This document shows, piece by piece, positions 29,420-33,650 of a stretch of DNA of 64,000 nt. The translations under genes were made by a program, and so were the position numbers. The notes under the pieces are model-generated. The model had not been told where the DNA came from, did not search any database, and saw only the letters and a list, made by a program, of their open reading frames with translations. The stretch lies in NCBI GenBank assembly GCA_016875735.1, contig VGOW01000001.1, positions 1 to 64,000 of the forward strand, read 5' to 3'. Every line of letters starts with the position of its first letter. Position 1 is the stretch's first letter. The stretch comes from Chloroflexota bacterium. Its GTDB lineage: Bacteria > Chloroflexota > Anaerolineae > Anaerolineales > VGOW01.

Positions 29420-29444
29420 CAAATTGCCTCGCGGTATCTACAAT
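29391..29444 (+). promoter_or_regulatory. Promoter and inverted repeat of the SufR-like gene
   Basis: TTGACA (29416-29421), 17-bp spacer, TACAAT (29439-29444). TTGTCAA (about 29391-29397) and TTGACAA (29416-29422) form an inverted repeat ending in the -35, a candidate operator. The ATG begins six bases after the -10, implying a leaderless transcript. Confidence 0.65.
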
Positions 29445-29450
29445 CGAATC

Positions 29451-30083
29451 ATGCAACACAAGCGGCAAGAGATCATCAACGTCCTCAAACAGCGCGGGAA
29501 CGCCTCTGTGGATGAGTTGAGCAAAGAGCTCGGCATCACGACGGTGACGGTGCGCCATCATCTCGACGTTCTGCGTTCGGAGGGATTGGTGAGCGAGCCT
29601 GCCGTGCGGCATCGCTCGAGTTCGGGCAGGCCTCAGCACATCTTCTCTCTCACGCCCAAAGCCGAAGAGCTCTTTCCGCGCAATTACGACGGACTCGCGC
29701 AAGTGCTCCTCGACGAAGTGAAGTCGAGACTCGACACTCGCGAAGTGAACGTGATCTTCGAGGGAGTCGTCCACCGTTTATTGGCCGATGCCCCCCGCCC
29801 CTCTCCCGATGAGCCGATTGAGCAAAGGCTCGACCGCGCCATTAACTTTCTGAACGAAAAAGGATATGTGGCTCACTGGGAACGGCGGCCCGATGGATTC
29901 TTCGTTCAGACTCGCAACTGCCCTTTCGAGGCGCTGGCCGGGAAGAATCCCGAACTGTGTTCGATGGATTTGATTCTGCTCACCTCGCTCATGGGCATCA
30001 CCCTCCAGCGCGTGTGCCACATGCCCGACGGCGACAATTCTTGCGCGTACATGGTGAAAGAGGTTGCCGTTGAAACCCGCTGA
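29451..30083 (+). CDS. sufR: SufR-like Fe-S-sensing transcriptional regulator
   Basis: 210 residues from ATG 29451. An N-terminal DeoR/ArsR-like winged helix (about 1-70: RQEIINVLKQRGNASVDELSKELGITTVTVRHHLDVLRSEGLV) precedes a C-terminal domain with Cys at NCPFEALAGKNPELCSMD and GDNSCAYMV. These match the three conserved Cys that hold the [4Fe-4S] cluster of SufR. SufR represses suf genes when Fe-S clusters are plentiful. It precedes an ErpA/IscA-type gene with its own promoter and is divergent from the run holding iscX, nuo and mrp. Confidence 0.85.
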   Translation: MQHKRQEIINVLKQRGNASVDELSKELGITTVTVRHHLDVLRSEGLVSEPAVRHRSSSGRPQHIFSLTPKAEELFPRNYDGLAQVLLDEVKSRLDTREVNVIFEGVVHRLLADAPRPSPDEPIEQRLDRAINFLNEKGYVAHWERRPDGFFVQTRNCPFEALAGKNPELCSMDLILLTSLMGITLQRVCHMPDGDNSCAYMVKEVAVETR

Positions 30084-30167: not shown

Positions 30168-30596
30168 ATGACAGCGCCTGCTGATAATCTAACTTTCATT
30201 TCTGACGAAGTCGAAACGCCCACCGTCACCCTCACCAACGGCGCGGCGGCCAAAGTTCGCTCCATTCTCGCCGAACGCAACGCGCCCAACCACAGCCTGC
30301 GCGTGTTTGTCTCTGGCGGCGGATGTTCCGGCATGCAATACGGCATGGCTCTCGAAGGCCAGCCGCGCGAATTCGACACGGTGATCGAGCAAGACGGAGT
30401 CAAAGTGGTGATCGACCCCACGTCGATGATGTATCTCGGCGGCGCGACGATCGATTACGTGGATAACATCATGGGCGGCGGATTCCGGATCGACAACCCG
30501 AACGCCGTTTCCACCTGCGGATGCGGCCACTCGTTCCGCACCTCGGGCGGCGCCGCTCCGGCCTCCTCGGGCGGCGGCTGCGCCTGCGGGCACTAG
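30168..30596 (+). CDS. erpA: HesB/IscA/ErpA-type Fe-S insertion protein
   Basis: 142 residues. The A-type carrier domain (about 18-122) has VTLTNGAAAKVRSILAERN, FVSGGGCSGMQYGM and CGCGHSF, giving the three Cys ligands. A-type carriers pass [4Fe-4S] or [2Fe-2S] clusters to target proteins. A Ser/Gly-rich tail with a further CAC motif (GGGCACGH) extends the usual length by about 20 residues and might bind metal. Next to the SufR-like regulator it is the likely target of Fe-S feedback. Confidence 0.9.
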   Translation: MTAPADNLTFISDEVETPTVTLTNGAAAKVRSILAERNAPNHSLRVFVSGGGCSGMQYGMALEGQPREFDTVIEQDGVKVVIDPTSMMYLGGATIDYVDNIMGGGFRIDNPNAVSTCGCGHSFRTSGGAAPASSGGGCACGH

Positions 30597-30637: not shown

Positions 30638-31015
30638 ATGGCCCGTCGCCTCTTCACCCTCGACGAAGCCAACGCGCTGCTGCCCACCCTCCGCCCCATG
30701 CTCATGGAAATGGTGGAGGCCCGCAAGAAAATTGTGGAAGCCGAACCCGACCTGTGGCCGGTGCTGGAAAAGGCCATGGGCAACGGCGGCGGCAAAAAGG
30801 CCGGAGCCGTCCTCCCCCACTTCGAGATCATTCAACGCAACGTCCAAACCATTACGGGTTTGGGCATCGAGATCAAAGACATCGGCGCCGGGCTGATCGA
30901 TTTCCCCGCCGAGCGCGAGGGGCGCGTTGTATACTTGTGCTGGCGGCTCGGCGAAGCGAGCGTGGCCCACTGGCACGAACTCGATGCCGGGTTCGCCGGG
31001 CGGCAGCCTCTGTGA
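30638..31015 (+). CDS. DUF2203-family protein
   Basis: 125 residues. MARRLFTLDEANALLPTLRP, then a long helix, GIEIKDIGAGLIDFPAEREGRVVYLCWRLGE and VAHWHELDAGFAGRQPL are the DUF2203 hallmarks. The function of the family is unknown. TATTAT overlaps the ATG and no Shine-Dalgarno is visible, so the gene may be leaderless or served by read-through past the terminator. It is 16 bp upstream of the radical SAM gene. Confidence 0.8.
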   Translation: MARRLFTLDEANALLPTLRPMLMEMVEARKKIVEAEPDLWPVLEKAMGNGGGKKAGAVLPHFEIIQRNVQTITGLGIEIKDIGAGLIDFPAEREGRVVYLCWRLGEASVAHWHELDAGFAGRQPL

Positions 31016-31031
31016 TCAAGACGGAAAACTC

Positions 31032-32441
31032 ATGCTAAAAAACTTGTGGTCGAAACCATCCTCCAACGGCGGGCCGAAACGGCTTTGGCTCGACCTCGGC
31101 GACTTGGGCGACCTCGTCAACCCTTCCGGGCCGCATGAGCAATGGCAGGATCACGGGCTCGGACTCCTGCGCACCCTCCTCCATCAAAACGATCTGCTCA
31201 CCGATCTCGCCTCCACTCGCGCCTGCAAAACGTGGGATGAGGTGAAACGAATCATCGCCGCTTACGACATACTGATCATGAACGTGCGCAGTTACACGTT
31301 TCCATCAGCCTATCGCTCGGCGAAAATTTTCAAAGAAGTCAATCCCAACGGACTCATTCTCGCCGGCGGCATGCACGCCACCGTGGCCCCCGACGAAATG
31401 GAAGCCATCGCCGAGTTCGACAAAATTTGCCAAGGCCCCGGCGAGAATGTCATCGTCGATCTCGTGCGCGACCCGGCCTCGTTCCCGCGCATGATTCTTG
31501 GGCAGGGCGCGAAGAGCATGGCCGAGTGGCCGATGATTGACCGCACCCTGTGGCCCAAACCCAATTCGTGGAAACTCGCTCGCAAGTTCAATTGGCCGCT
31601 CGAACCCGAATGCGGCTGGGGACCCGGACCCGTCGCCACCATCATCACCAGCCGGGTGTGCCCGTGGCAGTGCGTGTTCTGCAACGAAAACTCGTACATC
31701 CCCAATATGGGCCGCCGCCCGGTCGAGGCGGTGATCGACGAACTGAACTTCCTCGACAAAAAATACGGCGTCGGCTCGGTCGTCATTCACGACTCGATGT
31801 TCTTTCAGAATCCATCGTGGCTGCAAGAATGGGTGGAGAAGTATCCGCGCAAGGCGCGAAAGTTGTGGCCCTATTGGGCCGCCGGCCGCGCCGACACCGT
31901 GCGCCAGTGGCCCGAACTGTTCGAGGCGCTGATCAAAGAAACCCATTGGAACACGGTGTCCATCGGATTCGAGTCGGGCAGTGACCGCGTCCTGCGCATC
32001 ATCAACAAAGAGTGCACCGAAGAGGACAACTACTTCACTATCGATCTGCTCACCCGCATCGGCGACGAAATGGAAAAGCAGGGCAAGAAGCCGCCCATGT
32101 TCTGGAGCAACATCATGCTCGGCATCCCCGGCGAGACTCGCGAAGACGCGATCAAAACGATGCGCATGGTGAAATACACCAAACGCATCCTGCCCTCCAT
32201 TTCGTTTTACGCCCCCTACCCCGGCTCCGCGCTCGGCCATCAACTCATCGCCGAAGGCAAGAGCCGCATGACCAAAGAAAATTATCACCGCTTCCCCGAC
32301 GACGAAAAAGTGATCGGCGTTGATTATCAGTTCTACCGCGAACTCCTCGCCGGAAAGTTCGACGCCGAGATCAACAAAGACCTGCCCGGCCTCATCCAGC
32401 AGCGCCGCGCCGTTTACACCGACGCGCTGGCCAAAGCCTAG
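31032..32441 (+). CDS. B12-binding-type radical SAM protein
   Basis: 469 residues from ATG 31032. The N-terminal region (about 75-170) resembles a cobalamin-binding Rossmann domain (YDILIMNVRSYTFPSAY, LILAGGMHATVAPDEM) but lacks the DxHxxG motif, so cobalamin binding is doubtful. The radical SAM core has CPWQCVFC (about 211-218), the CxxxCxxC for the [4Fe-4S] cluster, followed by RRPVEAVIDELNFL, SIGFESGSDRVL and LGIPGETREDAIKTM. The layout is that of BchE/methylthiotransferase-like uncharacterised enzymes. The substrate is unknown. It sits with DUF2203, a 68-aa protein and a recombinase-fold protein on one strand. Confidence 0.85.
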   Translation: MLKNLWSKPSSNGGPKRLWLDLGDLGDLVNPSGPHEQWQDHGLGLLRTLLHQNDLLTDLASTRACKTWDEVKRIIAAYDILIMNVRSYTFPSAYRSAKIFKEVNPNGLILAGGMHATVAPDEMEAIAEFDKICQGPGENVIVDLVRDPASFPRMILGQGAKSMAEWPMIDRTLWPKPNSWKLARKFNWPLEPECGWGPGPVATIITSRVCPWQCVFCNENSYIPNMGRRPVEAVIDELNFLDKKYGVGSVVIHDSMFFQNPSWLQEWVEKYPRKARKLWPYWAAGRADTVRQWPELFEALIKETHWNTVSIGFESGSDRVLRIINKECTEEDNYFTIDLLTRIGDEMEKQGKKPPMFWSNIMLGIPGETREDAIKTMRMVKYTKRILPSISFYAPYPGSALGHQLIAEGKSRMTKENYHRFPDDEKVIGVDYQFYRELLAGKFDAEINKDLPGLIQQRRAVYTDALAKA

Positions 32442-32448
32442 CCAGCGA

Positions 32449-32478
32449 TCGCCAATCTCCAATCTCTAATCTCCATCT
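32449..32478. repeat. Phrase repeat (CCAATCTCTAATCT)
   Basis: GATCGCCAATCTCCAATCTCTAATCTCC fills the gap before the 68-residue gene and ends directly at its ATG, leaving no Shine-Dalgarno. Confidence 0.5.
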
Positions 32479-32685
32479 ATGAGCAGCTTCTCCAATCCTC
32501 ACTTCATGTACCTCTTCGAAATGAAGAACGGCAAAAAGAAACTGGCCTACGGCCAATCGCCCGAAGACGCGCTGGAGATTCTCTCGTACCGTCTCAGCCC
32601 AGAAGAGATGGACGAGATCATCAAAGATAAATTCACGAAAATCAACCAGCGGCAATTGCAGGAGCACGTTCACCTTTTGGGGTAG
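32479..32685 (+). CDS. Small protein of unknown function (68 aa)
   Basis: MSSFSNPHFMYLFEMKNGKKK, then SPEDALEILSYRLSPEEMDEI and NQRQLQEHVHLLG. I do not recognise the family. Soluble, mixed strand-helix, with no Cys. It lies 37 bp after the radical SAM gene and 11 bp before the recombinase-like gene on the same strand, so it is probably part of the same transcript and a candidate partner of one of them. Confidence 0.65.
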   Translation: MSSFSNPHFMYLFEMKNGKKKLAYGQSPEDALEILSYRLSPEEMDEIIKDKFTKINQRQLQEHVHLLG

Positions 32686-32696
32686 CGAAACTGGCC

Positions 32697-33650
32697 GTGT
32701 CCCCCGAACAACCTTCCCTCTTCGATAACCCTCCCTCCGCGCCCACTCCGGCCTCTGCGCCGCCGAACCGGCCACCCCATCTCGACCCCTCCACTCCGCT
32801 GGGCGCCGCCGTTGAATTGTGGCTCGACCATCTCCGCCAAAAGGACACGTCGTTCCACACCCTCACCGCCTTCAAGTGCGACGTGAACATTTTGCTCGAA
32901 CACCTCGACCCGGCCACGCCCCTCAACACCATCACCACCGCCAGCCTCAACCGTTTCCTCGATTGGATGCGCAACGAACGCGGCAAACCTTGCTCCGATA
33001 AAACCTATGGCCGCCGCGTCACCTCACTCAAAGCCTTCTTCCGCTGGGCCACACCGCTCGCGCAGCTCCGCGCCGATCCCTCCGAAGCCGTTCTTCAGCT
33101 CTCGGTGCGCAGCCCCCTGCCCGAAATTCTCACCGACGACGAAGTGGAGAAATGCCTCGCCGCCGGAGAGATTCTGCGCCACAGCGAAAAACCCGACATC
33201 CGACCGCTGACGCTATTCACACTGCTGCTCGACACCGGAATGAAAAAGGTTGAGGTCGCCAACCTCAAGCGCGAACACATCGACATCTCCAACCCCGCCG
33301 ACCCTTTTCTCTTCGTCCGCTATCCCGAAAAGAAAGACTGGCCCAAAGAGCGCCGACTCAAACTCACGCCGCAATGGGTTGAGATTTACCGCGACTATCT
33401 CGCCGACCACGCGCCCAAAGAAATCGTCTTCCCGTGGTCGGTGCGCAAACTCGAAATGTCGCTCGGCGAAGTTGGGACGCGCGCCGGATTGGAGAAGAGC
33501 GTATCGTTCGACGCCATGCGTTGGACATGCGCCGTGCGCGATCACAAAAGCGGAATGGAAGCGGAAGCCCTGCGAAGGAAGTTGGGCCTCTCGCCCATTC
33601 AGTGGCGGGAAACCGGAGAAAGAATCAGAAAATTGGTGGAGGGAGAATAA
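32697..33650 (+). CDS. Tyrosine-recombinase-fold protein with lost catalytic residues
   Basis: 317 residues from GTG 32697. A Pro-rich N-terminus (about 1-35) precedes a SAM-like core-binding domain (about 38-130: DHLRQKDTSFHTLTAFKCDV, TYGRRVTSLKAFFRWA) and a XerC/D-like C-terminal domain (about 140-310: LPEILTDDEVEKCLAAG, LTLFTLLLDTGMKKVEVANLK). The first catalytic Arg is Lys (MKKVEV), the HxxR motif reads DAMR, the second His (LGHS) reads LGLS, and no Tyr follows in the nucleophile position (QWRETGERI). It should be inactive as a recombinase but could still bind DNA. Not flanked by att-like repeats or phage genes. Confidence 0.75.
   Translation: MSPEQPSLFDNPPSAPTPASAPPNRPPHLDPSTPLGAAVELWLDHLRQKDTSFHTLTAFKCDVNILLEHLDPATPLNTITTASLNRFLDWMRNERGKPCSDKTYGRRVTSLKAFFRWATPLAQLRADPSEAVLQLSVRSPLPEILTDDEVEKCLAAGEILRHSEKPDIRPLTLFTLLLDTGMKKVEVANLKREHIDISNPADPFLFVRYPEKKDWPKERRLKLTPQWVEIYRDYLADHAPKEIVFPWSVRKLEMSLGEVGTRAGLEKSVSFDAMRWTCAVRDHKSGMEAEALRRKLGLSPIQWRETGERIRKLVEGE

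Follow-up and report, generated by a model that had tools for sequence, protein, structure and literature searches.

A Conserved, Probably Noncatalytic Tyrosine Recombinase-Fold Protein of Chloroflexota with a Candidate Sliding Clamp-Binding Tail

Introduction

The closest described relatives of the protein discussed here are XerC, XerD, and XerA. Active XerC and XerD work as heterotetramers. A streptococcal protein, XerDL, is recorded as XerD-like and without dif recombination activity; it belongs to a different phylum from the protein described here. The catalytic set of the tyrosine recombinases is R-K-H-R-[H/W]-Y (PMC5357621). Loss of catalysis within this fold is known from TnsF of Tn6022, a dead tyrosine recombinase fold which serves as a DNA-binding target selector; TnsF has a truncated catalytic domain, combines tandem core-binding domains with zinc fingers, and belongs to a Tn7-like transposon (PMC10293859). 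It is the sole case found in a literature search for dead Xer proteins or Xer proteins with clamp motifs.

Another relevant class is that of the clients of the beta sliding clamp (DnaN). DnaE, PolC, DinB, UmuC, and IS transposases carry a peptide of the QL[SD]LF type, often at a flexible end (PMC3919608, PMC4549789). Positions 1, 4, and 5 of this beta-clamp-binding consensus matter most (PMC3919608); the peptide also serves transposases (PMC4549789). None of these clients is a tyrosine recombinase, and the literature searched describes no clamp-docked, noncutting role for any relative of the tyrosine recombinases.

Here, we describe pseudo-Xer, a protein encoded in a stretch of 64,000 nucleotides from a Chloroflexota genome (the window). 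With XerC, XerD, and XerA it shares the two-domain fold, the core-binding consensus, the second catalytic arginine (Arg II), and a single chromosomal copy, whereas the first arginine (R-I), H-II, H-III, and the tyrosine nucleophile have been lost. With TnsF it shares a tyrosine recombinase fold without catalysis but, unlike TnsF, its family is full-length, chromosomal, and vertically inherited. Its likeness to the clamp clients lies in a peptide of their type. Catalytically dead tyrosine recombinases have hardly been described, and this one is chromosomal and near-universal in a large, poorly studied group; the beta-clamp peptide, if functional, would link a protein derived from a recombinase to the machinery of replication.

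Fold and Selection

Pseudo-Xer is encoded on the forward strand at 32697-33650, begins with a GTG start, and is 317 residues long. It matches PF02899 with 37.8 bits (cut-off 22.3) and PF00589 with 31.5 bits (cut-off 27.1). An AlphaFold2 model built from 48 sequences has a mean pLDDT of 88.6 and a pTM of 0.61; residues 1-23 form a disordered tail (pLDDT of about 40), which is followed by one core-binding domain. Foldseek matches the model to XerA (E 7e-12), lambda Int, XerH, Tn1549 Int, and Cre, and together with the two Pfam matches, this places pseudo-Xer by fold in the tyrosine recombinase superfamily. The overall TM-scores of the Foldseek matches are about 0.45-0.6, which probably reflects the rotation possible between the two domains. 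Scores against the NCBIfam equivalog models are far below the cut-offs, namely, 72.0 bits versus 329.6 for XerD and 67.9 versus 335.15 for XerC.

The frame is intact and under purifying selection, with a dN/dS of 0.11-0.22 against three orthologues of the same genus. The core-binding residues T55, D62, K102, R106, R107, T109, and K112, as well as R169, R208, and R219, are invariant in the order of the window. An earlier note on this DNA had read the fold as kept and the frame as intact; the confident model, the structural match to XerA, and the dN/dS values agree with that reading. Recent pseudogene decay is ruled out by the dN/dS values and by the deep conservation of the protein.

The pseudo-Xer profile also matches, with an E value of 1e-10, a Xer-like stretch at residues 18-189 of chain 14 in PDB entry 9i5v, a chain of 401 aa deposited as the ribosome-associated inhibitor RaiA.

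Catalytic Residues

The catalytic residues map identically whether the profile is aligned to XerA (5hxy) or the protein to 14 active Xer sequences from its own phylum. From the set of the tyrosine recombinases, pseudo-Xer keeps R-II, as R275 (33519-33521), whereas the R-I position is now K183 (33243-33245), H-II is D272 (33510-33512), H-III is L298 (33588-33590), and the nucleophile is G307 (33615-33617). The loss of the first Arg, both His, and the Tyr, claimed in the earlier note, is therefore borne out by both alignments. The hairpin which holds the catalytic Lys differs in length.

The same condition is found throughout the family, as surveyed in 87 members from four lineages. The R-I position holds Lys in 68/87, Arg in 3, and another residue in 16; His occurs at H-II in 0/87 and at H-III in 0/87; Tyr stands at the nucleophile position in 2. 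Arg at R-II is present in 87/87. No relative was thus found to carry an active recombinase at this place, as H-II and H-III are absent from 87/87 members, the R-I Arg from 84, and the Tyr from 85. Position 184 (K184), beside the old R-I, is basic in 87/87. The f69-type members retain a Tyr, a few residues beyond the usual nucleophile position, which makes their complete inactivity less sure.

It is conceivable, at very low probability, that pseudo-Xer is still an active, unusual recombinase which uses other residues, the basic residue having shifted to K184 and another nucleophile having taken over. Such a reading could draw on the universally basic position 184 and on the f69-type Tyr near the usual place, but both His positions and the Tyr are gone, and no alternative Tyr is conserved near the usual place in members from the order, from the class, or of the f43 type. 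Pseudo-Xer is a noncatalytic member of the tyrosine recombinase fold, neither a recombinase by function nor an equivalog of XerC or XerD, and the family models which put it with the recombinases and integrases are misleading about its function. The residue survey supports the view of a recombinase with an intact frame and a dead active site, retained for a noncatalytic, probably DNA-binding role. The repurposing suggested in the earlier note holds as regards this noncatalytic retention, since the relatives likewise lack the catalytic residues; the DNA-binding part of the suggestion stays at probable and derives from the retained core-binding domain.

Distribution and Evolutionary History

Of 61 relatives, about 52 have one pseudo-Xer orthologue, with 39-79% identity. 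The relatives of the window that carry names are Anaerolineales/Anaerolineaceae of Chloroflexota. By profile search, pseudo-Xer is found in all 46 good genomes of the window's order (>410 bits) and in 28/31 genomes from elsewhere in the class, the three misses all falling in a single family. Two further groups of the phylum contain it, the first with about 28 genomes at 194-237 bits and the second with about 27 at 114-149 bits, whereas the rest of the phylum genomes give generic Xer-level matches only. In the tree, 45 sampled members form one branch (100/100), apart from the active Xer set of the phylum (14 proteins, 98/98). Within the class, the members from the window's order form a clade (100/99), and the branching follows taxonomy, the exact root being unsure because of long branches. 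These data indicate that pseudo-Xer is inherited vertically from deep within Chloroflexota, as an ancient clade, and that the loss of the catalytic residues is not local.

Viral contigs of the collection searched encode no relative of pseudo-Xer, and among the matches listed for plasmid and phage collections there are remote integrases only, with less than 30% identity; a recent mobile or viral origin was rejected on these grounds. Pseudo-Xer could also be a component of a mobile element, for example, a TnsF-like target selector left behind by a transposon; TnsF, in which an inactivated tyrosine recombinase serves to select the target, offers a precedent (PMC10293859). For pseudo-Xer this origin is extremely unlikely in view of its single copy, its vertical inheritance, and the lack of viral relatives. 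Moreover, its N-terminus is a disordered tail and not a zinc finger, and no conserved transposon neighbor, of Tn7 type or other, accompanies the gene.

Another alternative is that pseudo-Xer acts as the noncatalytic partner of an active Xer in chromosome dimer resolution, as the dead subunit of a heterotetramer at dif. Its fold and sequence are closest to XerA and XerD, and an active Xer is encoded in the same genome (L243). However, only 5/41 genomes of the order encode a XerD-like copy that scores above 280 bits, whereas pseudo-Xer is nearly universal, and for this reason the partnership appears improbable, even if more distant recombinases that look active could take the part. Linkage of the gene to the terminus was considered and dropped, as its distance from dnaA is variable (0.06-0.34 of the genome in single-contig genomes with one strong dnaA hit).

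A second Xer-like protein is widespread in the order. It is encoded at G000:C61:6614-7543 and in many other genomes of the order, often has about 330-345 aa, and scores 98-123 bits to XerD; one of its copies (L066b) has intact Arg/His motifs. In lineages that lack typical XerC/D, it could be the recombinase that is active in dimer resolution. A fragment of pseudo-Xer itself was also seen in a genome of the window's genus (G002:C23:13669-13767), 69% identical to residues 285-316; the full gene lies about 2 kb upstream of it.

The N-Terminal Tail and the Proposed Role

The disordered tail of pseudo-Xer contains at residues 5-9 (32709-32723, forward strand) the peptide QPSLF, which resembles beta-clamp-binding peptides, so that a peptide of the QxxLF/QLxLxL type lies in an exposed flexible segment as in clamp clients. 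The peptides read in the tails of the family include QLSLF, QLPLF, QPSLF, QPPLF, QSNLF, and similar ones. When scored with the patterns Q..LF or Q[LMVI].L.[LFW], the motif is present in 57/87 tails (8/29 in the order, 15/22 in the class, 15/16 in the f43 type, and 19/20 in the f69 type). Composition-preserving shuffles give a mean of 0.2-0.3 motif tails per group with a maximum of 3, a comparison which is descriptive because the pattern was picked after the tails had been read. Controls independent of that choice are the active Xer proteins, the separate lineages, and DnaE. The motif is absent from active Xer and integrases (0/30) and occurs in about 5% of the ORFs at the same loci. As a positive control, the DnaE of the window's genome has QFDLF, and among the seven best DnaE1 proteins of the phylum QxxLF is present in five more.

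The window and all three orthologues of its genus carry the tail motif. In a larger set from the order it is found in 12/110, and the members without it are mostly short-tailed. Parsimony on the tree gives five motif changes, as expected from one basal gain and four losses. Since most members of the window's order are without the motif, clamp docking cannot be required everywhere. A short linear motif can also be due to chance or serve other partners.

The reading we favor, with a probability somewhat above even, is that the pseudo-recombinase is kept as a DNA-binding protein which is recruited to the replication clamp by its tail; clamp docking is proposed because the tail motif is present. 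The Chloroflexota pseudo-Xer family has lost the chemistry of strand cleavage but retains a DNA-embracing fold of two domains, with its basic residues. The QxxLF peptide of the flexible tail may dock in the pocket of the clamp and thereby bring the protein to DNA under replication or repair, where it would bind, without cutting, either a site or a branched DNA structure. Pseudo-Xer is probably a DNA-binding accessory of replication or repair and not a partner of its neighboring genes. More tentatively, and with somewhat less than even probability, the Xer fold may have been converted early in Chloroflexota into a widespread, noncutting, replisome-tethered pseudo-recombinase which binds DNA, docks on the beta clamp, and handles intermediates of replication or recombination, for example, Holliday-type junctions.

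The dead DNA-binding protein may instead act independently of the clamp, for example, as a factor of transcription or of chromosome architecture, in which case the tail motif would be ancestral baggage or would bind another partner. We consider this unlikely, yet more probable than the other alternatives. It is favored by the motif-less majority of the window's order, which is equally conserved in the folded part, and by the position of the gene in part of the order, where it lies between a LCP-type gene and tilS and without replication genes. In the order beyond the window's genus this arrangement is common, with the LCP-type gene upstream and tilS convergent downstream (the names come from reading the sequences). 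No neighbor gene common to all lineages was found, and so none points to replication or repair. Two groups that are well separated retain the motif in 34/36 members, although much of the remaining tail varies between groups, and this argues against a clamp-unrelated role.

In three members of family f56 (L224, L225, and L239), a hexapeptide-type motif (QLALPF, QLVLPLW, and QLALPLW) replaces the pentapeptide. The same three proteins have an insert before a retained Tyr.

Neighboring Genes

Pseudo-Xer is the last gene discussed in a run on the forward strand. The run begins with a SufR-like regulator of the ArsR type (29424-30083), which is followed by an ErpA/IscA-like Fe-S insertion protein (30168-30596; PF01521, and NF010147 over cut-off), a DUF2203 protein (30638-31015; PF09969, 122 bits), a radical SAM protein with a B12-binding-like N-terminus (31032-32441; 469 aa from ATG; PF04055, 55 bits), and a 68-aa protein (32479-32685). 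The ORFs from DUF2203 to pseudo-Xer are all on the same strand with gaps of 11-37 bases, in agreement with the earlier note. The two genes upstream, SufR-like and ErpA-like, were absent from that account and bear on the real gene unit.

The earlier note had also proposed that DUF2203, the radical SAM protein, the 68-aa protein, and the dead recombinase form one functional unit. The single strand, the short gaps, and the repetition of the same gene order in G003 and G004 would be compatible with it, but the proposal fails when co-occurrence is checked. The 68-aa protein occurs in 18 genomes in all (7/61 among the relatives, 13/399 across the phylum), and the radical SAM gene is directly upstream of it in 18/18, the match being cut or partial in two. 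Conversely, pseudo-Xer adjoins this pair in only 3/18 genomes (G000, G003, and G004), all from the window's genus. It lies on another contig than the pair in G002, of the same genus, and also in G006, G026, and G060; outside the genus, pseudo-Xer and the 68-aa gene are on separate contigs or far apart. Across the order, pseudo-Xer is present in 46/46 genomes versus 2/46 for the pair. A functional unit of these four genes is thus scarcely probable. Pseudo-Xer is an incidental neighbor because it is adjacent to the pair in one genus only, and the radical SAM, 68-aa, and DUF2203 genes stand outside its function.

The real neighbor unit is formed by the ErpA-like protein, the radical SAM protein, and the 68-aa protein. 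In the context of the pair, the ErpA-like gene is present at 14/16 loci, the SufR-like gene at 7, DUF2203 at 6, and divergent complex I genes at 6. For the 68-aa protein, Pfam and NCBIfam give weak matches, all below cut-off, and a PDB fold search gives no match. Its assignment as a RiPP precursor was rejected, as Frankia_peptide (PF14407) scores 21.2 bits versus a gathering cut-off of 48. The SufR-like regulator at the head of the run suggests Fe-S control of the radical SAM genes, and the radical SAM and 68-aa pair looks like an undescribed radical SAM/small-protein system. The 68-aa protein is conserved over its whole length and is predicted to form a compact alpha/beta domain; it begins with MSSF[SA]NPH and is 58-87% identical across the class.
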